DNA of 34,218 nt from Exilispira sp. (GTDB lineage: Bacteria; Spirochaetota; JAAYUW01), in assembly GCA_012517545.1 (NCBI GenBank), contig JAAYUW010000044.1, positions 1-34,218 of the forward strand. The letters are read 5' to 3'. A model generated the notes under the pieces. That model ran no database searches and had not been told where the DNA came from. It worked only from the letters and a program-made list of their open reading frames with translations. Of this stretch, positions 2,332 to 34,067 are shown piece by piece (position 1 is the first letter of the stretch; the number at the start of each line of letters is the position of its first letter). The translations under genes and the position numbers were made by a program.

Positions 2332-3555
2332 TTATTTTTTTGAGATAACATCTGGAAGCGTTATTATTGCTATAATAGAGCTAAAAAGACAACCTGAAGC
2401 CCCTAACAAAAAAACCCATTTTTTTGAAATATTCCAAAGAATACCTATCAATAAAGGTGCTACAAAACTTAATGCATTATCAATAGATGAAAGGAATCCC
2501 TGAACAACAATACCTTTTTTATCTTGAAAACAATCATATAGGTATGCAAATGATGAAGGTGCAAATGCATCCTTAATCATAGTGCAAACTATGCCAGCGA
2601 TAAATAAATAAGTATTAGTAGTAAAAGCAAAAATAAGAGCCGGTATAATATCAAAAGCATTGTCAAAAACAAACAGCCATTTTCTGTTTATGAAATCAGA
2701 GACATTACCTATTAATATTGCAACAATAGAGTTAACTAATGTAATAGCTCCAAACATAGATAATATTTTAGGAACAGATATTCCTATTGAAGTTCCTAAT
2801 AGAGGCAGGAAAAAAAGCGATGTCGTATAAATTGTTGAACCAAAACCAACTAAAAGAAATCCCCAAAAATATTTATTTTTAATTACACTTAAAAATTGAT
2901 TTTTATCTTTTTTATCATCACCATTTGATTGCCTGGATATAGTTTCTTCTTTTATTTGAACTTTTGCAATATTTTTATCAGTTCTTTTAATAAAAAACAT
3001 AGGAATAAAAAAGATAAAACTAAAACCAAAAAACAAAACTGAAACATTTGTTTTTGAAGTTATGATACTTCCTAAAAACATGCCTATTGAAATTGAACCA
3101 AACAAGAACAAATCTCTAATGGCAAAATATTTACCTCTTGAATCCGATTCTATTGAATAATTTATTGCATTTCCAGAAGAATAATTAAAAACAGTTCTAC
3201 TGATCATTATCATAAGACATGCCGGGTAAACTGTATATATGCATGATGGTAAGCATCCTGCTAAAATTGCTCCAAAAAAACCTATTAACATAGCTATCAT
3301 ACCAAATAGCATCGAGCTAAATCTATGAGCCATATAAGCAATAAATGATGGAAGAATAATGTTAATGATGCTATTAGTCGACAAAAATGCACCATAGATA
3401 TTACCATGAAATCCATAATGCTCAAATAAAAGAGGTATTGAAGTTTCCAGAGGACCATTTGCCAGGAAAAATGAGAAATAGATAAAGTAAATTATAAAAA
3501 ATTTTTTGTTAATAACTTTTTTGTAACTTGAAAAAAATCTATTAAAACTAGCCAT
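2332..3555 (-). CDS. MFS transporter, substrate unknown
   Basis: This 407-residue protein is strongly hydrophobic with about 12 predicted membrane spans. A charged, poorly conserved cytoplasmic loop near residues 195-222 (rich in Lys, Asp, Glu) lies between the two six-helix halves, which is the major facilitator superfamily layout. The first span starts near residue 18 (FFIIYFIYFSFFLANGPLET). The motif A-like loop between spans 2 and 3 is weak (AHRFSSMLFG). I cannot assign a substrate. The start has no clear ribosome-binding site in the 15 bases upstream, which may mean weak translation. It stands alone between a repeat-bearing spacer and leuS. Its Phe/Ile/Ser-rich, very AT-rich coding suggests it could be horizontally acquired, but I have not computed this. 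Confidence 0.75.
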   Translation of the reverse strand: MASFNRFFSSYKKVINKKFFIIYFIYFSFFLANGPLETSIPLLFEHYGFHGNIYGAFLSTNSIINIILPSFIAYMAHRFSSMLFGMIAMLIGFFGAILAGCLPSCIYTVYPACLMIMISRTVFNYSSGNAINYSIESDSRGKYFAIRDLFLFGSISIGMFLGSIITSKTNVSVLFFGFSFIFFIPMFFIKRTDKNIAKVQIKEETISRQSNGDDKKDKNQFLSVIKNKYFWGFLLVGFGSTIYTTSLFFLPLLGTSIGISVPKILSMFGAITLVNSIVAILIGNVSDFINRKWLFVFDNAFDIIPALIFAFTTNTYLFIAGIVCTMIKDAFAPSSFAYLYDCFQDKKGIVVQGFLSSIDNALSFVAPLLIGILWNISKKWVFLLGASGCLFSSIIAIITLPDVISKK

Positions 3556-3739
3556 AACGATTTGAATTAAAACCTATTTAGTAATATTCACAAGCTAAAA
3601 ATTAGTATTTATTAAAAAAATGATGAGTTTATCTAAGCACTTAATTTTATACACAGGATTTTATAGGATTTCTATTGACTTGATTCAAAAATCTAATATC
3701 TTTTCTTTAATATTTTTGGTTTTTAAAGAGGTAAAATCT

Positions 3740-6181
3740 ATGGAAGGTTATCCACATCAGGAAATTGAAAAAAAATGGCAGGAATTCTGGGAAAAAAATG
3801 AATCAAACAGAGTAACTGAGGATTTATCGTTTCCAAAGGAAAAGAGGTTATATATTCTCGATATGTTCCCTTATCCTTCCGGAGAAGGTTTACATGTTGG
3901 GCATCCAGAAGGATATACTGCCACAGATATTTTATCTCGTTATTATAGGTTAAATGGGTACAATGTTTTACATCCTATGGGGTGGGATGCTTTTGGCCTT
4001 CCTGCAGAAAACTATGCGATAAAGACAAAGATTCATCCATCTATAACAACTCAAAAAAATATAAATACCTTTACACGTCAGATTAAGTCATTGGGTTTTT
4101 CATATGACTGGTCAAGAACTTTTAGTACGACTGATCCGGAATATTTCAAGTGGACACAGTGGATATTTTTAAAGTTTTTTGAAAAAGGCCTGGCTTACAA
4201 GTCTAAAGCTCCCATTAACTACTGTCCGAGTTGTAAAACTGGTGTCGCAAACGAGGAAGTCGTAAATGGCTGCTGTGAACGTTGTGGAACGCCAGTTGAG
4301 CGAAGACTTATTGATCAATGGCTTTTAAAGATTACAGCTTATGCAGATAGGCTTTTAGATGATCTTGAACTGGTTGACTGGCCAGACGATATAAAAACCA
4401 TGCAGAAAAACTGGATAGGTCGTTCAGAAGGTGCCAATATAATATTTGATATTGACAAATTTAACGAGAGGATAGAGGTTTTTACAACAAGAGCAGATAC
4501 AATTTTTGGTGCAACCTATCTTGTTCTTGCACCTGAGCATCCTCTTGTTGATAAGATTACGACTTCTGGACAAAAAAAAGAAGTTTTGGATTATAAGCAA
4601 AAGACTTTGAACAAATCGGACCTCGAAAGAACCAGCCTTAATAAGGAAAAAACAGGAGCTTTTACCGGTTCTTATGCTATTCATCCTTTATCTGGTAAGT
4701 TACTTCCTATCTATATTTCAGATTATATTCTTATGCACTATGGGACTGGAGCGATAATGGCAGTTCCAGCTCATGATGAAAGGGACTTCGATTTTGCCAG
4801 TAAATTTAGGCTTCCTATAGTCCAGGTTGTGGCTCCAGAAAGAGATATGGCTATTTCTCTTGATAAACCTTATGTTGAAGATGGATATTCTATTAACTCG
4901 GCACAGTTTAGTGGTCTTCCTACCTCAAAGTGTGCTGAAAGAATAATAGAAGAGCTTGAACGAATGAAGAAAGGAAAAAGGGCTGTAACATATAAACTTC
5001 GCGATTGGATATTTTCAAGACAGAGATATTGGGGAGAGCCTATACCGATAATAAATTGTCCAGACTGTGGCCATGTTCCATTAAAATATGAGCAACTCCC
5101 TTTATTACTTCCTCTCATTGATTCATACGAACCAGCTGGGGATGGAACCTCACCACTTTCAAAGGTAACAAGCTGGGTAAATGTAAAATGTCCCAAATGT
5201 GGAGCTGATGCTAAAAGAGAAACAAACACCATGCCTAACTGGGCAGGAAGTTGCTGGTATTACTTAAGATACACGGATCCACATAATGATAAAGAGTTTG
5301 CCAGCATTGAAAAACAGAGTTACTGGATGCCTGTTGATATATATGTTGGTGGTAAAGAGCATGCTGTTTTGCACCTTCTTTATGCTAGATTCTGGCATAA
5401 ATTTTTGTTTGATCTTGGTCTGGTAACAACTGCAGAGCCATTTATGAAACTTAGAAATCAGGGATTAATACTTGGAGAAAATAATCAAAGGATGAGTAAA
5501 TCACGTGGAAATGTTATAAATCCTGATGATATTGTTAAAGAATTTGGTGCAGATACATTTAGAATGTACGAGATGTTTATGGGACCTTTAGAGACATCAA
5601 AACCCTGGAATAAAAATTCTATAGGAGGCATAAGAAGATTTCTTGATCGAATCTATGACTATTTTACATCTGTATCACTCGATGCGGAATCACTACCACC
5701 TGATATTGATAGACTTTTACATAAAACCATAAAAAAGGTTGGAGAAGATATAGAAACCATTAGTGCATATAACACAGCAATATCAGCCCTTATGATACTT
5801 TTGAACGAACTTCAAAATCTCGAAAGTATACCGCGAAAAGTTGCTCAAAGCTATATTGTTATACTTTCTGTTTTTGCACCACACATTGCTGAGGAATTGT
5901 GGGGAACTGTTGGTGATGGAAAACCTATATTTTTAAAACCAGGTGATCGAGAAGTTTTGTGGCCATCTTATGATGAAAGCAGGATAAAAGATGAAACAGT
6001 TACTTATGCAATAATGATATCTGGTAAAAAAAGAGCTACAATAGAAATGCCAGCAGGAGCAAACAGGCAAGATGTGGAAAATGAGGCAAAGAAGTTACCC
6101 ATGGTTCAAAAATATCTTGAAAATGCCCACATAAAAACTATTATATTTGTTCAGGATAAAATAATTAATTTTGTATTATAA
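3740..6181 (+). CDS. leuS: Leucyl-tRNA synthetase
   Basis: LeuRS charges tRNA-Leu and edits mischarged products. The ATG at 3740 is chosen because AAAGAGGT (3725-3732) precedes it and the protein then begins MEGYPHQEIEKKWQEFW, the usual LeuRS N-terminus. An in-frame upstream ATG (3620) would add 40 unrelated residues. The resulting 813-residue protein has the HIGH-type motif HVGH (residues 52-55), a first zinc-type cluster (CPSC...CERC), the CP1 editing domain with TTRADTIFGATY and GTGAIMAVPAHDERD, a second Cys cluster (CPDC...CPKC), the catalytic WAGSCWYYLRY block and RMSKS (584-588). It ends with the anticodon-binding and small C-terminal domains. Length is normal for a bacterial LeuRS. Confidence 0.97.
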   Translation: MEGYPHQEIEKKWQEFWEKNESNRVTEDLSFPKEKRLYILDMFPYPSGEGLHVGHPEGYTATDILSRYYRLNGYNVLHPMGWDAFGLPAENYAIKTKIHPSITTQKNINTFTRQIKSLGFSYDWSRTFSTTDPEYFKWTQWIFLKFFEKGLAYKSKAPINYCPSCKTGVANEEVVNGCCERCGTPVERRLIDQWLLKITAYADRLLDDLELVDWPDDIKTMQKNWIGRSEGANIIFDIDKFNERIEVFTTRADTIFGATYLVLAPEHPLVDKITTSGQKKEVLDYKQKTLNKSDLERTSLNKEKTGAFTGSYAIHPLSGKLLPIYISDYILMHYGTGAIMAVPAHDERDFDFASKFRLPIVQVVAPERDMAISLDKPYVEDGYSINSAQFSGLPTSKCAERIIEELERMKKGKRAVTYKLRDWIFSRQRYWGEPIPIINCPDCGHVPLKYEQLPLLLPLIDSYEPAGDGTSPLSKVTSWVNVKCPKCGADAKRETNTMPNWAGSCWYYLRYTDPHNDKEFASIEKQSYWMPVDIYVGGKEHAVLHLLYARFWHKFLFDLGLVTTAEPFMKLRNQGLILGENNQRMSKSRGNVINPDDIVKEFGADTFRMYEMFMGPLETSKPWNKNSIGGIRRFLDRIYDYFTSVSLDAESLPPDIDRLLHKTIKKVGEDIETISAYNTAISALMILLNELQNLESIPRKVAQSYIVILSVFAPHIAEELWGTVGDGKPIFLKPGDREVLWPSYDESRIKDETVTYAIMISGKKRATIEMPAGANRQDVENEAKKLPMVQKYLENAHIKTIIFVQDKIINFVL

Positions 6182-8319: not shown

Positions 8320-8939
8320 ATGAAGAGAAATAATAGGCAAAATAATTGGTTTTGCTTTTCTTAACAATTTTTCCAATAAGTTGTCAGCTGCAATTACCAC
8401 AAATCAACTTTGATGAAGGAACACTTGAATATGAACTCGAAGAGGTCAGGTACAAGTATAATCTTCCAACTATTACTGTGGCTGTTAAAAATAATGATGG
8501 ACCGCCTGTTTTTTGTTCTATAGGTTATAGAAATGTAAAAGATGATGATAACTATGTTACAAATAATGATAAATGGCACATTAGTTCAATAGCAAAATCT
8601 ATGACAGCTACATTGACAGCTAAACTTATAGAAATAAATCCATCTTTAAGTTGGGATCTAAAGTTGATAGATGTATTTCCAGAACTTTGAGGGCAAATCA
8701 ACTCTGCTTATGAAGATGTGATATTTGTTGAACTTTTATTTCATAAAGCCGGGATGATGAGTGATTTAACAACCTTACCTGATTGGGTTAGTTATTTTAC
8801 GGATAGCTCATCATTAAAAGAACAAAGATATGAGTTAATTGAAGAAATATTGAAAAAACTACCAGAAGGCGCAAAGGGAAGATATTTATATGGATGAAAT
8901 ATTGTCAGTTGCATGGAATTTTTAATTGAAAATAGATAG
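8320..8939 (+). pseudogene. Broken serine hydrolase (beta-lactamase / penicillin-binding protein-like family)
   Basis: The frame from 8346 starts with a lipoprotein-like signal (LVLLFLTIFPISC) and then resembles the serine beta-lactamase-like hydrolase family. The Ser-x-x-Lys nucleophile motif is in WHISSIAKSMTATL, and the family's LLxHxxGM block follows (LLFHKAGMMSD). The reading is broken by TGA at 8688-8690, TGA at 8895-8897 (in the position of the YxN motif) and TAG at 8937-8939. The likely true start, ATG at 8320 (MKRNNRQ), is one base out of frame with the signal sequence, suggesting a frameshift near 8340. The C-terminal third of the family domain is absent. TGA readthrough as tryptophan is unlikely because neighbouring genes end on TGA at normal lengths. 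Confidence 0.8.
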
Positions 8940-19613: not shown

Positions 19614-19637
19614 ATATAAAATTTATAGGTGGTCAAA

Positions 19638-20258
19638 ATGCAGGCTAAACATAGCCTAACAGTGATGTTTTTGTTAATATTTTTGATAATACTTATTATT
19701 TCAGTTGTTTACTGGTTCAACTATCTTGGCCTACTTAATCTTCCAAGGGCTCTTAGCAAAATTGTATCGAAAGTTCCTCTTATATCTTACGGTAAAGATA
19801 TCACTGACCCCTTTCTTTTAGAGAAAGAATATTATTCAAAGTTAAGATTATCTTATGATTCTATGTTTACTCAGTTGAATCAATATGAAAATGAACTCAA
19901 AGCAAAAGATGAACAGATAAAAGAAAAAGAGAAGATTCTTTCTGAATCAGAACTTTCTTTTAAACAAAAAGAAGAAAATATTTATCGAAAATTAAAAGAG
20001 TACGAAGATTATAAAGAGAATATCAAAAAAGAAGCTATTCAATTTATAAACATGCCACCAGAACAGGCAGTAAAGGTTTTGAATAGTATGGATATTCTCA
20101 AAGTTGTAGATATTCTTCGTGCCATGGATGAATACTTTGCCCAGATCGGTGAAAGTTCATTGGTGCCTTATCTTGTGAGTTTGATGCCACCTGATCGAGC
20201 AGCAAAGATTAGTGAATACAAGGTAGAAGGAGCTACAACTTATAGTCCAGCGCCATAA
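19638..20258 (+). CDS. flbB: FlbB/MotE-like membrane-anchored coiled-coil protein (periplasmic flagellar collar-type)
   Basis: ATG 19638 is chosen because AGGTGG (19627-19632) precedes it; an in-frame GTG at 19629 overlaps that site. The 206-residue protein has one N-terminal membrane span (about residues 8-28, TVMFLLIFLIILIISVVYW), a charged coiled coil (about 68-130) and a C-terminal MgtE-N/MotE-like helical repeat segment. That segment includes FINMPPEQAVKVLNSMD and VSLMPPDRAAKISEY, where the MPPxxA repeats are characteristic. In this position (fliJ-x-fliK) spirochaetes carry FlbB, a base component of the periplasmic flagellar collar, while other bacteria have MotE/YlxF-like proteins. The collar role is inference from position and architecture. 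Confidence 0.75.
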   Translation: MQAKHSLTVMFLLIFLIILIISVVYWFNYLGLLNLPRALSKIVSKVPLISYGKDITDPFLLEKEYYSKLRLSYDSMFTQLNQYENELKAKDEQIKEKEKILSESELSFKQKEENIYRKLKEYEDYKENIKKEAIQFINMPPEQAVKVLNSMDILKVVDILRAMDEYFAQIGESSLVPYLVSLMPPDRAAKISEYKVEGATTYSPAP

Positions 20259-20279: not shown

Positions 20280-21617
20280 GTGAAACTCATTCTTCCCACT
20301 ATCCCTCAAGGGATTGATGGGGGGGAAGATTCAACTCGTTTAAAAAATGTATCTAAGCTAAAAAAGGATGAAGCAAAAAAAACATTTAAAGAGTTACTTT
20401 TAGAAGACCAAAAAACTGGTGTAACTGGAAAAAAACGAGTTAAGTTTATTTACAATGAAAAAACGATGGTTAGCTCGACCATCCAGCAAGAGCTTTTGGG
20501 CTTAAGGCGCACGGAGGCAAAGAATTATCCAAGGATGGATAAAAAGACATTTGGTTTTTGTGATGCTGCTGAAAAATCTTTAAAAACTAAATCTGCAAAA
20601 TCTATATCTTCATCTGTTGTTTCAGATTTAAAGAGTAATATTGATTCAAGTTTACTTTATAATATTGATATTTCTCTTAAAGAAGCTGATAGTCAAATGC
20701 TTTTAAGTAAGGCTCGGGGAGAAATAAACAAATCTACTGATCTGAATGAAAAAAAGAAATTTTTCATAAGTGAAAAGCAGATTGATAACCCTGGATCTTT
20801 ACAAAATGTTAAAGATCTAAAATCAGCAGGAAAGTTATCTTTAAAAAACAGTATTGAAGATGAAGAAATTTCAGGTAAACATGATTTTAGCCTTGAAAAT
20901 GACAACCTGATGGATGAATCATCACTTACAGCTCTTAAAGGAATTCAAAAAAGATCTCTGAACTTTGATCTTGCAAATTCAAAAGATTTTGAATTTTCAG
21001 GTGAAAAAACAAAAGGACTAAAGTCTGGCTTAAAAGAAATTTTTAAAAACAATTCTATTGACTCAACAAATTTTCAATCACTAATTCAGTTATATTTTAA
21101 TCAAATTGGAATCAATAACTCTTCAAGTAATAATATTTCTTCTATTCTTCTTCATATTTATTCAAACATTTCCAAATTTTACAGGGCAACAGCACAAGAT
21201 TTTTCAAATATGCTTGATTCTATAACGATTAATTCTTTTGGGAAAGGATTTTTAGTAAACATGAAGTTATATCCGGAAGATCTTGGTGAACTGGAACTTA
21301 TCTTACGTAAAGATGGGAAAGATATTTCTTTAGCTGCGACAGTACTAAATGAGGAAGCAAAACAGATTTTGATGAATGACAGTGAAAATCTATCATTTTA
21401 TTTTTCACAACAAGGATTCAATCTTACTGATTTTAATGTTGATGTTCGAAGCGATAATAATGATTCTACTGAAAATGATTTTGGAGAATTCATTAATTCA
21501 AATGACAGATTTTCATTACATGAAGATGATCATGTGGAATTTGATCCTTCATCATTTGCAGGGCAGATAAACAAGGTAAATCGAAGTATCGGGAAAATTG
21601 TCAACAAAATAATTTAA
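20280..21617 (+). CDS. fliK: Flagellar hook-length control protein FliK
   Basis: FliK measures hook length and switches export specificity. The GTG at 20280 follows AAGGAGG. The 445-residue product has a long, low-complexity Ser/Lys/Asp-rich N-terminal ruler region. The conserved FliK C-terminal domain lies at about residues 310-400, with [20 protein letters not shown] and the following [20 protein letters not shown] block. Only this C-terminal part is conserved in the family, so the assignment also leans on position (between flbB and flgD, as flbC in Borrelia). A G7 tract at codons 14-16 is a possible slippage site. Confidence 0.88.
20319..20325 (+). repeat. G7 homopolymer within the 5' coding region of fliK
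   Basis: Seven consecutive G residues encode Gly14-Gly15 and the first base of Glu16 of FliK. Change by one G would shift the frame after about 15 codons. Confidence 0.6.
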
Positions 21618-21633
21618 TTTAAATGGAGATAAT

Positions 21634-22416
21634 ATGTCTGAAATAAGTCAAATAAATACCTTTCAAACAAAAGAAGACTATGCAAGAACTCAGATGCTTG
21701 TCGAATCATTCAATAAATCTTTGATGCTTGACGGTAAGGAAAGGAAACAGGAACTTGGGAAAGATGATTTTTTAAAACTTTTAATAACCCAATTGCAACA
21801 TCAGGATCCTACAAAACCTCTTGAAGATAAGGAGTTTATTGGGCAAATGGCTCAATTTTCTAGTTTAGAGCAGATGAAACAGGTAAATGATACTTTATCT
21901 CTTTTAAATCAAGGATTTTTGGTAAATCAAACACTTTCACTTTTGGGAACTGAAGTGAAAATTCAGACTCCTTATGGAGTAGATAGTGGAGTTGTAACTA
22001 ATGTTGTTTTTGAAGCAGGAATGCCTAAAGTTGAAGTTAATAATTCTTTATATCCAACATCATTTATTTACGAGATAGGGATACCTTCTATTTACCAGCA
22101 AAATGATTCATCTATCTCACCTGAAGCAGCAAAAGATGAGTCATCAGAAGATAAAGTGGAAAGTGAAGCTAGCAATAATTCCAGTAATTCTTATAGTCAA
22201 ACAGATACTACTCTTGTAAATAAAGCAAGTACAAATGAAATTGATAATAAATATCAGATAAATAATACAGGGCATGGGGAAGATAGTAAAATTAGTTACA
22301 CACTTGATGATATAAATTATCAGATAGATGGTGATATTATCGAAAATCATAATAGTCTTTCTAATAATCCAAAAACGGTAAATGACTATTATTATGATCC
22401 ATTTTATGTAAGATAA
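21634..22416 (+). CDS. flgD: Flagellar hook assembly (cap) protein FlgD
   Basis: FlgD caps the growing hook and lets FlgE subunits assemble. The conserved N-terminal block is strong: [20 protein letters not shown] then [20 protein letters not shown] (about residues 41-78). A small beta domain follows ([20 protein letters not shown], then a PKVEVNN segment). In place of the usual Tudor/FnIII-like domains, the last 100 residues are a low-complexity Ser/Asn/Asp-rich tail ending DPFYVR. The GGAGA ribosome site precedes ATG 21634, 16 bases after fliK. Confidence 0.93.
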
Positions 22417-22613: not shown

Positions 22614-23996
22614 ATGATGCGATGTCTTTATTCAGGAGTTTCTGGACTTCAAAATCATCAGGTCAGGATGGATGTTATAGGTAATAACGTATCAAATGTT
22701 AATACATACGGTTTTAAAAAGAATAGAGTGAGCTTTCAGGATTTATTATATCAGAATATGTCTGGTGCAGCAGCTCCTACAGTTGAAGTAGGTGGTATAA
22801 ATCCAAAACAGATAGGTCTTGGTATGTCCATAGCTCAGATAGGAACTATCTTTACACAGGGTGCATTGCAAACAACAGGAAGGAATCTTGATCTTGCTAT
22901 AACTGGAGAAGGATTTTTCATTGAAAAAAAAGGTGAAAATGTTTTCTATTCAAGAACCGGTGTCTTTGGCATAGATAAAGATGGAGTTCTGGTAAATCCT
23001 TCAAATGGATTCAGGATTCAAGGTTGGAACTCTGAATTTGTCAATGGAAAATATATTATAAATACTGCTAATCCAATAGGCGATATAACTATTCCTATTG
23101 GAGGAAAATCTCCAGCTAAAGCTACTTCAAGGGTAGATTATAAATCAAATCTAAATTCAGAAACGGCAGCACTGCCTGAGGGAAGAGAGCCAACAGAAGA
23201 GGAAATAGCTGCCAGTGTTCATAAAACGACTATCGATATTTTTGATAGCAAAGGTAATAAGCACCAGCTGCAACTTTCATTTACAAGAATTCCAGGAACT
23301 GTAAACCAGTGGACCTGCACAGCAACAATGCTGGATCTCCCGGATGTCCAGATACAGCTTGATATTCCCGGGAACAACATCAACGATTCTAACTCCATTT
23401 TACTGCAATTTAACAATGAGGGAGCCATTTTATCAACCTCAGATAATCCTGCAAATCCTGGTGCTCCGTCTGATATTATAAATGTTGGAAATCTTATAGC
23501 TAATGCTAGTTTTGTTCTACCTGATGGTCAGCAACAGAATATACAATTAAATTTAGGAACCAGTGGGCAATATGATGGTATTACTCAGTTTGCTTCTCCA
23601 ACTACAACTAAAGCAATAGATCAGGATGGATATACCATGGGTTACCTTGAGACATTTGTCATAGATAATCAGGGTGTTGTCACAGGTATTTATTCAAATG
23701 GAGAGAAGATAGCTCTGGGTCAGGTAGCTCTTGCTACATTTACTAATCCTGAAGGACTTCAGAAGGTAGGAGACAATAATTTTGTTCAAACTATTAACTC
23801 AGGGATGGCAAATGTCTCGGCTGCAAATACAGCAGGTAAGGGAGCTCTTGTTGCTGGCGCTCTTGAGATGAGCAATGTTGATCTTTCCGAAGAATTTACC
23901 GATATGATAGTCACTCAAAGGGGTTTTGAAGCAAATTCAAAGACTATACAAACTGCTGATCAGATGCTCCAGGTGATAATGGGTCTGAAAAGGTAA
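22614..23996 (+). CDS. flgE: Flagellar hook protein FlgE, with Ser at the spirochaetal crosslinking Cys position
   Basis: FlgE polymerises into the flagellar hook. The 460-residue protein has the N-terminal signature SGVSGLQNHQVRMDVIGNNV (residues 7-26), the hook D1 motif RNLDLAITGEGFF, and the C-terminal helix LSEEFTDMIVTQRGFEANSK and following residues. AAGGAGATAATT precedes ATG 22614. By recalled numbering of Treponema denticola FlgE, residues Lys165 and Cys178 form the lysinoalanine crosslink that stabilises spirochaetal hooks. Here Lys165 (codon 23106-23108) and Asn179 are kept, but residue 178 is Ser (TCA, 23145-23147). The only other cysteines are Cys4 and Cys234. Confidence 0.97.
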   Translation: MMRCLYSGVSGLQNHQVRMDVIGNNVSNVNTYGFKKNRVSFQDLLYQNMSGAAAPTVEVGGINPKQIGLGMSIAQIGTIFTQGALQTTGRNLDLAITGEGFFIEKKGENVFYSRTGVFGIDKDGVLVNPSNGFRIQGWNSEFVNGKYIINTANPIGDITIPIGGKSPAKATSRVDYKSNLNSETAALPEGREPTEEEIAASVHKTTIDIFDSKGNKHQLQLSFTRIPGTVNQWTCTATMLDLPDVQIQLDIPGNNINDSNSILLQFNNEGAILSTSDNPANPGAPSDIINVGNLIANASFVLPDGQQQNIQLNLGTSGQYDGITQFASPTTTKAIDQDGYTMGYLETFVIDNQGVVTGIYSNGEKIALGQVALATFTNPEGLQKVGDNNFVQTINSGMANVSAANTAGKGALVAGALEMSNVDLSEEFTDMIVTQRGFEANSKTIQTADQMLQVIMGLKR

Positions 23997-24125
23997 TATT
24001 GCACTTATTTATAAGACTATTGTAATATTATTTTTTTGATGTAAACAAAGCTATATAGAAAATGAATATTTATACTTTCTTTAATATTTACAGCAAAAGA
24101 AGGATTGATGTTAAAAGAGGAAAGA

Positions 24126-24323
24126 ATGATTAAATTGACCAGAATTAATGGAAAAGAGTTTTATCTAAACCCTCATATAATAGAATATATTGAGTCTGTT
24201 CCAGACACTTTAATATCACTTCTCGATGGTACGACAATCTATGTTAAAGAAAGACCAGAACAGGTTATTGATAGAATAATTGAGTATAGAAAGAAAATAG
24301 GGATTTTTAAGAGTGAACTGTAA
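24126..24323 (+). CDS. flbD: FlbD-family small flagellar protein
   Basis: The 65-residue product starts at ATG 24126 behind AAGAGG (24115-24120); an in-frame ATG at 24105 is less likely because the family begins MIKLTRINGKEFYLNP. The rest follows the family (IEYIESVPDTLISLLDGTT, KERPEQVIDRIIEYRKKI). FlbD proteins of this type sit between flgE and motA in spirochaetes, clostridia and bacilli. Their function is not well defined; the name is shared with, but unrelated to, the Caulobacter regulator FlbD. Confidence 0.9.
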   Translation: MIKLTRINGKEFYLNPHIIEYIESVPDTLISLLDGTTIYVKERPEQVIDRIIEYRKKIGIFKSEL

Positions 24324-29560: not shown

Positions 29561-29685
29561 TTTTTCATAAATTTTAATTAGATCATAATTCTCAATTCAT
29601 TTATCAACCCAATTTTCCTGATTCTTGATTATTATTTTATTTGCGTTATTATTTAACTGGAGTTTTCTTTTATAAAGAGTTTTTT

Positions 29686-30306
29686 ATGCAAAAAAAAATG
29701 TTTTTTTTGTCAATATTTATTATTATCATGATTTTTTCTTTTACTTCAAATATATTATCTCAAAATACTGACACATCCAGCACATCAACTGCACCATCAG
29801 AGGAAGAATCTATCACAAAGCAGATAAACGAGAATTTAAAAGGAACTGGTTCTACAGATGATAGAAAAAATCAAGAAAAAACTTCTTTTTTTTCAATTTT
29901 CTTAAGAACTGCTATTATTCTTCTTGTTTTAATTGGTATTTATCTTTTCTTTAAATACAAATATTCAAAAAAAAGTGATAAGAAATTACCTGATAAGATT
30001 TTTAATATTCTTTTTCTGCAACCAGTTGCAAAAAATATTTCAATTGGAATATTGGAATTTTTTGAAAATTATTATATAATTTCAATAGGAACTGATATCA
30101 ATATACTGGAAAAAGTTGATAATCAAGAGCTTATAGATTTAATAAAACTTGAAAGCAGTAAAAAGTCGGAAAAAAAAAGTTTTTTAGAATTTCTTGGTTT
30201 AAGTTCAAGTTCAAATATTGATGATAAAAAATCAGTTACTCAATCATTCAATAACTTAAAACAAAAGATTGGCAGGATAAAAAAAGGGAATCAGCAAGAT
30301 GAGTGA
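29686..30306 (+). CDS. fliO: Flagellar biosynthesis protein FliO (FliZ-like)
   Basis: FliO helps assemble the FliP core of the export gate. ATG 29686 is preceded by AAAGAG; an in-frame TTG at 29641 is unlikely. The 206-residue product starts with a hydrophobic signal (MQKKMFFLSIFIIIMIFSF), then a Ser/Thr-rich stretch and a membrane span near 65-87 (FFSIFLRTAIILLVLIGIYL). The cytoplasmic FliO-like segment (ILFLQPVAKNISIGILEFFE, YYIISIGTDINILEKVDNQE) follows, and the C-terminus is Lys-rich. Sequence conservation is low in this family, so position after fliY carries weight. Its last 8 bases overlap the next start. fliP does not follow. Confidence 0.8.
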   Translation: MQKKMFFLSIFIIIMIFSFTSNILSQNTDTSSTSTAPSEEESITKQINENLKGTGSTDDRKNQEKTSFFSIFLRTAIILLVLIGIYLFFKYKYSKKSDKKLPDKIFNILFLQPVAKNISIGILEFFENYYIISIGTDINILEKVDNQELIDLIKLESSKKSEKKSFLEFLGLSSSSNIDDKKSVTQSFNNLKQKIGRIKKGNQQDE

Positions 30307-31534
30307 TAATACTAAGTTTGGTATTTCTCGATACAATGCGAATTCTGTAATAATGATAAGTGGAGATACAAATAATAAAGCCTTTTACATAATCCAGGAA
30401 GGCGCAGTTAAACTTACAAGTCCTATCTCAAAAATAATTGATGATATAGATGTAGATTTACAAAAAGGAGATTTTTTTGGAGTTGAATCATGTATGGCCA
30501 ATCTTCCACGTATAGATGGAGCAGTCACAACAAAACCATCTCTGTTGATAACCATCTTAAGAGAACAATTCTCAAATCTTATAAAGAGATCTCCGACAAT
30601 ACCTATAAAGATAATAAAATCATTCTCTGAAAAACTTCGTAAGTATGATCACTATATAGCATCACTTTCTTTAAAAGCTAACAATAGTAGTAATATCGAT
30701 GAAGAAGAATTACTTTTATCAAATGCACGATTTTATGAGCAACATTCAAAATTTGCATTTGCTTATAAAATTTATCTTACTTATTTAAAGCTATTTCCAC
30801 AGAGCAAACATTTCAATGAAGTTAAGCAGCTTGCTGTAAATTTAAAACCATATTGTGAAGATGCTGTACTTGATATTCAGCTCAATGGTTTAACAGCAAA
30901 TGTGCCTAAAGATTTTCTCTTATTTTCAGAGGGAGAACCGGGAGATCGTCTCTTTATTATTCAAAAAGGCAAAGTGAATATTACAAAAATAATGGATAAT
31001 AAGGAAATCCTGATTGCAGTTCTTAAAGAAGGTGATATTTTTGGTGAAATGGCGCTTTTGGAGAATAAACCACGAACTGCCAATGCAATCACTGCTGAAG
31101 ATTGTACCTTCCTTATTGTTGAAAGAAAAAACTTTGATGCTATGGTTGCTACACAACCAAGTTTAACTACCAAGCTCATAACTTTACTTTCTGAAAGAAC
31201 CTGGGTAGCCTATCGTCAATTGGAAAATTTATTACTACAGGAACCACTGGCTAGAATATGGGATACTCTATTAATTCAATTGCAAAAAAATAGAATAATA
31301 CCTGTGGAAAATGGCAGTTTTATTTTTCCATTTTCTTTTACTGGTCTTGTCAAAATGGTTGGATTACCTGAACATGAATCAGCTAAATATAAAGCAGAGT
31401 TTATTAAGACAAAAAAGTTTGAAGAACTAGAAGATAAGATTGTCTGTCGAAACACTATCCTTATTCAAAATCAGGTTGAATTTTATCAAAAAATGCTTTT
31501 AAGAAAAGAAAAAATTTTAAATCAGAAAGAATGA
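30299..31534 (+). CDS. Tandem cyclic-nucleotide-binding domain protein, Crp-like
   Basis: This 411-residue protein has two cyclic-nucleotide-binding domains. Domain 1 (about residues 10-120) is degenerate: its phosphate-binding cassette reads FFGVESCMANLPRIDGA. Domain 2 (about 200-315) has a canonical cassette FGEMALLENKPRTANA (residues 248-263, with Glu250 and Arg259 that grip the cyclic phosphate and ribose), so it should bind cAMP or cGMP. The C-terminus (about 340-395) resembles a Crp winged helix (TGLVKMVGLPEHESAKYKAE). I recall similar two-domain proteins in treponemes, but their role is unclear. The ATG lies inside the end of fliO (30299-30306), which couples its translation to the flagellar operon. 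DNA binding is possible but not certain. Confidence 0.85.
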   Translation: MSDNTKFGISRYNANSVIMISGDTNNKAFYIIQEGAVKLTSPISKIIDDIDVDLQKGDFFGVESCMANLPRIDGAVTTKPSLLITILREQFSNLIKRSPTIPIKIIKSFSEKLRKYDHYIASLSLKANNSSNIDEEELLLSNARFYEQHSKFAFAYKIYLTYLKLFPQSKHFNEVKQLAVNLKPYCEDAVLDIQLNGLTANVPKDFLLFSEGEPGDRLFIIQKGKVNITKIMDNKEILIAVLKEGDIFGEMALLENKPRTANAITAEDCTFLIVERKNFDAMVATQPSLTTKLITLLSERTWVAYRQLENLLLQEPLARIWDTLLIQLQKNRIIPVENGSFIFPFSFTGLVKMVGLPEHESAKYKAEFIKTKKFEELEDKIVCRNTILIQNQVEFYQKMLLRKEKILNQKE

Positions 31535-31550
31535 TTATTAAGGAGTTTTA

Positions 31551-34067
31551 GTGTCTTCTGTTATAGATCCGAGAAAGATACAAAAAGATTTACCGATACC
31601 TAAAGGTGCTGTTCTTTATGACTTTGATGATCAATATAACAAATTAAACATGCTTGAATCTGGCAGCGTACAATTTATAGCAAAAATAAATGATTCTGGA
31701 AATGAAAGATTATTAGGTGAAATAAAGACCAAGAGATTTATCCTTCCTCATCTCTTATTTGGTGAAAATAATAATCCTCTTAAAATTATTTCTTCTATGG
31801 ACTGTATCATTAATTCATATCCATTCTATCAAAATACATTAAGTTTTTTTTCTCAAAATCCTCTCATTGCCAGATCAATTTTTGTTTCACTTATTGCTGA
31901 TTTCAATGAAATATATTCAAAAATAAAATCCTTTTATGAGTTTTCTTTTAAAGTTGAAAAACTTTATGATAATCTTATTCTTGCAATTGCATTGGGAAAA
32001 CTAAATAAGAATCTTATAGTATTTTCAGATGATTCGTTCAACCTTTTTCAAATATCAAAAAATTATGAAGAAAAATTCAAAAGTCAAAATGGCTTTTTCC
32101 CTGGTGTTGATAATCCCAATTTTCTAGGGAATGATAACAGCAGATTCATACAAAAAAAATATGAATTTAGTATGGAAAGATTATCCTGTAATCAAGATAT
32201 TTTAAATATTGCATTTTCTTTTAGAAAAACTCCTCTGGAGGTTATGGATAGTATATATAAAAACACTTATGAATTACCTTTTTATATATGCAAAACCTTC
32301 AGCAAAGAGTTAGATTCTTTAATAGCTTCATTTATTGAGATAATAGTACGTACTGAATCTTATCTTATAAGGATTTTTTCACATCCATCTAATCTTTCCT
32401 ATGTATTATTAAAAGGGATTAATGATAAGCTTGGTAAAGAAAAATGTCTTGCTATTTTTTCAACAGTATATGCATCATATCAAAATTTTGCAGAATTTTA
32501 TAAAAATTTCTTTCAACTAATTTCTTTGCCTTTTAATCTTAATTTCAAAAATGATTTATTATATCTTATTGAAACAACTAAAAAAAGTACCCTGGAATCT
32601 GTTGCTCAACCTGAAAAAAAAGGCAAAGAAGCTGTTTCATCTATTATTTCAGATATACTTTCGAAAAATGAAAACTCAAGTTTTTCAATTGATTCGATAA
32701 TAATAGGAGAAAAGAAGTCTTCTCAGCTGACAACATCATCCAAATTCTTTTCAGAGATTTGCAGTTTTGCAAATTTTCCAGCTGATGAGACAAAAATATT
32801 TTCAAAAGCACTTGATACTTTTATTAAACAGCAAGATAAAACTGCAGATAATGAAATAAATAGAAAAGTACAAAAAGCGATACGAACTCTTTACTTTAAA
32901 TTATACGAAAAGACTTTTATTAAATCTTTAAATACAAAGCAGTACCCAAAGGCTGTAGATTATTTTTTAAAATTTGGAATAATAGATGAAAGGTTGCTTA
33001 CACAGGAAGATTTGAACGTAATTATTAATTTTTCAGATAATTCTTATAGTGATTATGAGATCTACTATCCTTACGATTGGTTTTCACTTATATATAATGA
33101 GAAAATTGAGCCTTCGATAAGTGATCTCGGACAAAGTTTTGCTGAAATAGAAAGAGAAGAAGCTAAAAGATATAAAAAAGTTAAAGAAGAAGAAATCCCT
33201 ATTAATCTAAAAAAGCTTAAATTTGAAATAGAAAACTTTTATCAAACTACATATAGAGTGTTAACTTCATCTCCTCTTACAGCCCTACCTATTTTTTTCT
33301 CAGAAAATGTAAGAGGAAAATTAAGTGATCTAATAATTACAAGAGAAAAAATAGCAAATGAGTTAGATTGGCTTAGATCTATAGACTACTCTCTTTTTTG
33401 GAGAGAGTCTATATATAGGCAGGAAGATATTTTTGATATATACAAAAAGGAAGTACTTCCATATATCATAATAATACCAGGTATTGGTGATAGAATTTTC
33501 ATGTGGCAGGATTCTGGGACCAATAAGTACATGCCTGCTCGATTTGTTTTCCCTTCTGTTTTTACAGGTTCAGATCTTCGTAAATCAGTGGCTTTGGCTT
33601 GTGCTGCTTATAGGTGGGAAAATAATAAAACAATGAAAGGTCCTGCTTGGGCTGATGCGACAGCAGGTGGTATAACAGGAGCATATGTTGATTACCTTCA
33701 AACATATCAAAAAAGTACAGAGCTATCTATTGAAGCAAAAAAAACGATAAAGGAACAACTCAGCAAGTTTCGAAGTGATAGAGAAAAGTTTGCGAATGAT
33801 TATATCCAGTGGATATTTTACGAATCAGAAGGTATTTTAAAACTAAACTCTCTTTTAAGAAGAATATTTATATTTGAAATTCCTTTTAAGAAAGAAGTTT
33901 TGCTTCAATTACAACGGCTACCAGCATTTGAAAAACTTGTTACAACATTTATAAATAGAAGAAAGATGGAAATAAGATCAAATATAAATAGATATAGAAA
34001 ATTTGAAGATCAAGAAAAAAATCTTCCAGATGAAATTCAAAAATTTATGGATTTTTTAAAAAATTAA
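31551..34067 (+). CDS. Large protein of unknown family with degenerate N-terminal cyclic-nucleotide-binding-like domain
   Basis: I do not recognise this 838-residue protein as a whole. A GTG start at 31551 follows AAGGAG with 16 bases after the preceding gene. Residues 1-110 have the beta-roll pattern of a cyclic-nucleotide-binding domain (IPKGAVLYDFDD, MLESGSVQFIAKINDSGNE, GEIKTKRFILPHLLFGE) but lack the FGE...PRxA cassette, so nucleotide binding is unlikely. The middle is helical with Ser/Lys-rich linkers (about 360-410). The most distinctive segment is near 630-690: YIIIIPGIGDRIFMWQDSG, then MPARFVFPSVFTGSDLRKSV and LACAAYRWENN. The C-terminal 120 residues are helical and basic. No signal peptide, clear membrane span, zinc site or nucleotidase motif is visible. 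The pairing with the tandem-domain protein suggests a shared complex or signalling step. Confidence 0.8.
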   Translation: MSSVIDPRKIQKDLPIPKGAVLYDFDDQYNKLNMLESGSVQFIAKINDSGNERLLGEIKTKRFILPHLLFGENNNPLKIISSMDCIINSYPFYQNTLSFFSQNPLIARSIFVSLIADFNEIYSKIKSFYEFSFKVEKLYDNLILAIALGKLNKNLIVFSDDSFNLFQISKNYEEKFKSQNGFFPGVDNPNFLGNDNSRFIQKKYEFSMERLSCNQDILNIAFSFRKTPLEVMDSIYKNTYELPFYICKTFSKELDSLIASFIEIIVRTESYLIRIFSHPSNLSYVLLKGINDKLGKEKCLAIFSTVYASYQNFAEFYKNFFQLISLPFNLNFKNDLLYLIETTKKSTLESVAQPEKKGKEAVSSIISDILSKNENSSFSIDSIIIGEKKSSQLTTSSKFFSEICSFANFPADETKIFSKALDTFIKQQDKTADNEINRKVQKAIRTLYFKLYEKTFIKSLNTKQYPKAVDYFLKFGIIDERLLTQEDLNVIINFSDNSYSDYEIYYPYDWFSLIYNEKIEPSISDLGQSFAEIEREEAKRYKKVKEEEIPINLKKLKFEIENFYQTTYRVLTSSPLTALPIFFSENVRGKLSDLIITREKIANELDWLRSIDYSLFWRESIYRQEDIFDIYKKEVLPYIIIIPGIGDRIFMWQDSGTNKYMPARFVFPSVFTGSDLRKSVALACAAYRWENNKTMKGPAWADATAGGITGAYVDYLQTYQKSTELSIEAKKTIKEQLSKFRSDREKFANDYIQWIFYESEGILKLNSLLRRIFIFEIPFKKEVLLQLQRLPAFEKLVTTFINRRKMEIRSNINRYRKFEDQEKNLPDEIQKFMDFLKN

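Follow-up and report, generated by a model that had tools for sequence, protein, structure and literature searches.

Serine and cysteine have been swapped repeatedly at residue 178 of the spirochaete hook protein FlgE, with the remainder of the crosslink site unchanged. The FlgE encoded in the window, i.e., the whole 34,218-nucleotide stretch of Exilispira sp. DNA that was analysed, has serine at this position, and most probably belongs to the serine type of lysinoalanine-crosslinking hook protein, in which Ser178 would be dehydrated and then joined to Lys165 of the neighbouring subunit.

The flgE gene (positions 22614 to 23996, plus strand) starts with ATG and encodes a hook protein of 460 amino acids. 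The product of this open reading frame scored 537 bits against the NCBIfam FlgE model NF004241 (cut-off 469) and contains the Pfam domains FlgE_D2, Flg_bbr_C and Flg_bb_rod; the assignment also draws on the predicted model described below. The alignment with Treponema denticola FlgE (PDB 6ndx_B) had zero gaps from K165 through N179, in agreement with the residue numbering of the first-pass annotation. The codons were also as read there: the crosslinking Lys165 is AAA (23106 to 23108), Ser178, at the position of T. denticola Cys178, is TCA (23145 to 23147), and the structural residue Asn179 is AAT (23148 to 23150). The equivalents of T. denticola Thr334 and Lys336 are present as Thr331 (23604 to 23606) and Lys333 (23610 to 23612), and all of these codons lie on the plus strand. 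Cys at 178, the defining trait of the Cys-type subgroup (the T. denticola, Borreliella and Brachyspira form), is absent, and codon 178 is a TCA serine; the protein was therefore filed with the Ser-type FlgEs.

Three other explanations of the serine were rejected. The only cysteines of the protein are C4, located in the N-terminal helix, and C235, the position of which is poorly kept (Ala in 106 of 165 loci); both are off-site and unconserved, and thus neither substitutes for the missing cysteine, a possibility that had been raised before. An assembly error at codon 178 was dismissed, since TCA was also found in two more genomes of the same genus and in the one sampled genome of the sister family. 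The genome has one flgE copy, and no second, Cys-bearing FlgE was found in it, the remaining matches being shorter FlgG/FlgF-like frames on C171.

The predicted structure of the window FlgE was compared with the PDB. The top match was 6ndx_B, the crosslinked T. denticola FlgE dimer (E 2.6e-20, TM 0.82 by target length), and 6ndt, the dehydroalanine intermediate, was also matched. The model is a moderate one, with a mean pLDDT of 62 and failed terminal helices, and the matched portion is the modelled D1/D2 region, which has the D1/D2 fold of FlgE.

The gene is located in a flagellar cluster comprising an FlgC-like gene (Flg_bb_rod/Flg_bbr_C), fliE, fliF, fliG, fliH, fliI, fliJ, flbB, fliK, flgD, flgE, flbD, motA, motB, fliL, fliM and fliY. 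Its neighbours on the plus strand include flbB for the periplasmic flagellar collar protein (19629 to 20258; NCBIfam NF047368 collar_FlbB, 2.9e-45, above the cut-off), fliK for hook-length control (20280 to 21617; Pfam Flg_hook, 6.7e-12), flgD for hook capping (21634 to 22416; Pfam FlgD, 2.2e-22) and flbD (24108 to 24323; Pfam FlbD, 5e-27). Because FlbB is retained, together with three FlaA-family matches elsewhere in the genome, the organism probably has ordinary periplasmic flagella. The closest titled FlgE relatives are spirochaete MAGs with 88% identity, and with FlaA and FlbB this places the organism inside Spirochaetota, settling the doubt that it might lie outside the phylum. On the 3' side of fliY, the region from 29641 to 34067 contains a 221-aa open reading frame and an 838-aa protein, both with no Pfam or NCBIfam match, and a cyclic-nucleotide-binding protein between them (30299 to 31534). 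Two adjoining short open frames at 8346 to 8897 resemble fragments of one interrupted gene; they contain an SxxK-like motif, and neither piece matches Pfam.

A serine-type hook crosslink site is already known, and serine at this position does not imply loss of the crosslink. In Leptospira FlgE, Ser179 replaces Cys178 and forms lysinoalanine in vitro as well as in vivo (Lynch et al. 2023, PMC10691653). Its partners are Lys166 and also Lys145/148, as found with the recombinant protein and with native periplasmic flagella, and several crosslink isoforms occur (PMC10691653). The recombinant protein crosslinks without a helper, the serine reaction in vitro is slower and requires pH 10-11, and the T. 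denticola C178S mutant also forms lysinoalanine in vitro (PMC10691653). Thr-334 and Lys-336 were highlighted in the alignment of the same paper, in which K165, S178 and T328 of Brevinema FlgE were noted from its sequence only (PMC10691653). The window FlgE resembles L. interrogans FlgE (Lys166/Ser179; PMC10691653) in having Ser for Cys, a Lys 13 residues earlier and, probably, periplasmic flagella. It is unlike that protein in that Leptospira Ser179 also joins K145/K148, whereas the window has N144 and Y147 by numbering, with K146 close by. Brevinema andersonii FlgE (A0A1I1E638, cited in PMC10691653) likewise carries K165 and S178, identically numbered, with T328 as the Thr at the regulatory position; like the window FlgE, it is known from sequence alone.

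To place the window FlgE within the phylum, a census was made from a 393-genome draw of the phylum, with FlgE taken from almost all genera that gave a strong match. It comprised 166 FlgE loci, of which the 165 readable at residue 178 come from 146 genera and 57 families. Residue 178 was Cys in 96 loci, Ser in 69 and nothing else. Lys165 was invariant (166/166), as was Asn179 (165/165, Cys-type and Ser-type alike), and the Thr334 position was Thr or Ser without exception in both types. Thr, Ala and Gly were found at residue 178 in none of the 165 loci, although a single base change in a Ser codon can give each of them. When one representative per genus was counted, including the window, 83 had Cys and 64 had Ser (n = 147). 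Ser occurred in 32 of the 57 sampled families, of which 30 had Ser only and two were mixed (f10 and f38); the other 25 had Cys only. The first-pass annotation had taken the serine as an exception, a view contradicted by the published occurrences in Leptospira and Brevinema and by the 64 Ser-type genus representatives. What was observed directly for the window FlgE is the make-up of the site, how far it is conserved and how it is distributed.

A second set of loci with record titles, partly overlapping the census, had 48 Cys, 16 Ser and 1 Gly at residue 178. The FlgE of one spirochaete MAG (L077, positions 3001 to 4386) has Lys, Gly (GGC) and Asn at 165, 178 and 179, i.e., neither Cys nor Ser, and its closest relatives (at most 83% identical) carry Cys; either it naturally lacks the crosslink or its sequence is in error. 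A MAG titled Brachyspira murdochii (L035) has a Ser-type FlgE 88% identical to that of the window, unlike the FlgE of Brachyspira pilosicoli (L085), which has Cys at 178, and L035 is probably a mislabelled record. Outside the phylum, three Clostridia-type FlgEs lack Lys165 and carry Gly as residue 178, and in the alignments listed the residue aligned with 178 is Ile in Salmonella and Ala in Campylobacter.

We infer the crosslinking reaction in this organism from Leptospira FlgE and the T. denticola C178S mutant. After assembly of the hook subunits, Ser178 would undergo beta-elimination with loss of water to give dehydroalanine, assisted by the conserved pocket (Asn179 and Thr331), and Lys165 of the neighbouring subunit would then add to the dehydroalanine. 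The end product would be the same lysinoalanine weld as that made from Cys178 in T. denticola (K165/C178/N179; PDB 6ndx and 6ndt), where hydrogen sulfide is lost in place of water. The presence of K165, S178, N179, T331 and K333 in a site gapless against that of T. denticola, and the fold that the two proteins share in the modelled D1/D2 region, are consistent with this scheme. The occurrence of only Cys and Ser at residue 178, and the invariance of K165 and N179 whichever of the two is present, are as expected if the two residues do one job. The reaction of the Ser may need a helper factor or slow ageing, because the Leptospira reaction in vitro is slower and needs pH 10-11.

The conservation of K165 and N179 could instead reflect packing. 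On that account Ser178 would be unreactive, Lys165 and Asn179 would be retained for subunit packing only, and the hook would work uncrosslinked in this lineage, which we regard as improbable. Serine is a poor leaving group, the Leptospira reaction needs its high pH in vitro, and the Gly in the L077 FlgE hints that an uncrosslinked hook may be tolerated somewhere. However, all 69 Ser-type loci have both K165 and N179, an idle Ser should show one-step changes to Ala, Thr, Pro, Gly or Asn, where solely Ser and Cys occur in 165 loci, and Leptospira Ser179 does crosslink. An even smaller chance is given to the idea that Ser178 links mainly to other lysines, as with K145/K148 of Leptospira, or reacts via an activating enzyme (Ser phosphorylation or acylation, as in lantibiotic synthesis). 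Leptospira indeed has several isoforms, and in the window FlgE K146 is close to that stretch and K169 and K177 are close to the site; yet the counterparts of K145/K148 by numbering are not Lys, the stretch is variable across the phylum, and recombinant Leptospira FlgE had no need of a helper. The serine-type weld between Ser178 and Lys165 stays our preferred reading. It keeps that part of the earlier interpretation in which Lys was retained, Cys was replaced by Ser and the Ser would react by dehydration, and drops the proposals that the serine marks a transition state, that the crosslink was lost or that the chemistry is new. Loss is argued against by the presence of Ser in 64 of the 147 genus representatives without any variation at K165 or N179, and the chemistry was already published for Leptospira Ser179 as lysinoalanine-forming. 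A transition state is argued against by the window's order, where all 4 sampled genomes have Ser (TCA); Ser178 is therefore settled there and not transitional.

The history of the exchange was examined on an FlgE tree built with column 178 left out. At least 9 Cys/Ser changes were counted on this tree, 5 when only branches with SH-aLRT of at least 95 were trusted, and 11 after the titled loci were added. The window's group (families f1 and f2) is all Ser with the codon TCA, and a two-state model made Ser near certain at its base. The same model, with a root resting on distant outgroups, leans to Cys as the ancestral residue of the phylum. Both TCN and AGY serine codons are used at 178, sometimes within one family (f48). 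These codon sets are two base changes apart, via Cys (TGY) or Thr (ACN). Because Thr was never found at 178, Cys may have been the intermediate in some of the switches between the two Ser codon sets; tandem changes are a possible alternative.

Two leads came from the comparison of the types. The Lys336 position, at which the window FlgE retains Lys (K333), was occupied by Lys in 95 of the 96 Cys-type loci vs 40 of the 69 Ser-type loci; it is relaxed in the latter, with mostly Arg as the replacement. On the FlgE tree, a model of correlated evolution favoured dependence between 178 and 336 (LR 13.8, 4 df, p 0.008) for this column, which was picked before testing, and the independent pairs are too few for confirmation; we treat the co-change as a lead. 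The second lead is a link of Ser178 with alkaline lakes: all seven MAGs with the labels GEM2, DLM2 and CSSed, which we take to denote soda-lake samples, have Ser178 (L057, L058, L067, L069, L074, L075 and L088), from mixed AGY and TCG codons and with only 2 independent contrasts.

By itself, the window case is an ordinary one, a probable occurrence in one more lineage of the published serine-type hook crosslink. The useful addition is the repeated Ser/Cys exchange in spirochaetes with the other site residues fixed, and the census corrects the view of Ser as essentially a Leptospira peculiarity. Tentatively, the hook crosslink might be a two-chemistry trait, a somewhat doubtful generalization in which one residue is repeatedly swapped between Cys, which would release H2S, and Ser, which would release water, within an otherwise fixed site; helper residues such as Lys336 would change along with it, and a habitat such as alkaline lakes might favour Ser. 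The spread of the Ser-type matters to any drug idea aimed at the cysteine, and the repeated natural swaps offer a test of enzyme-free dehydroalanine formation from serine.
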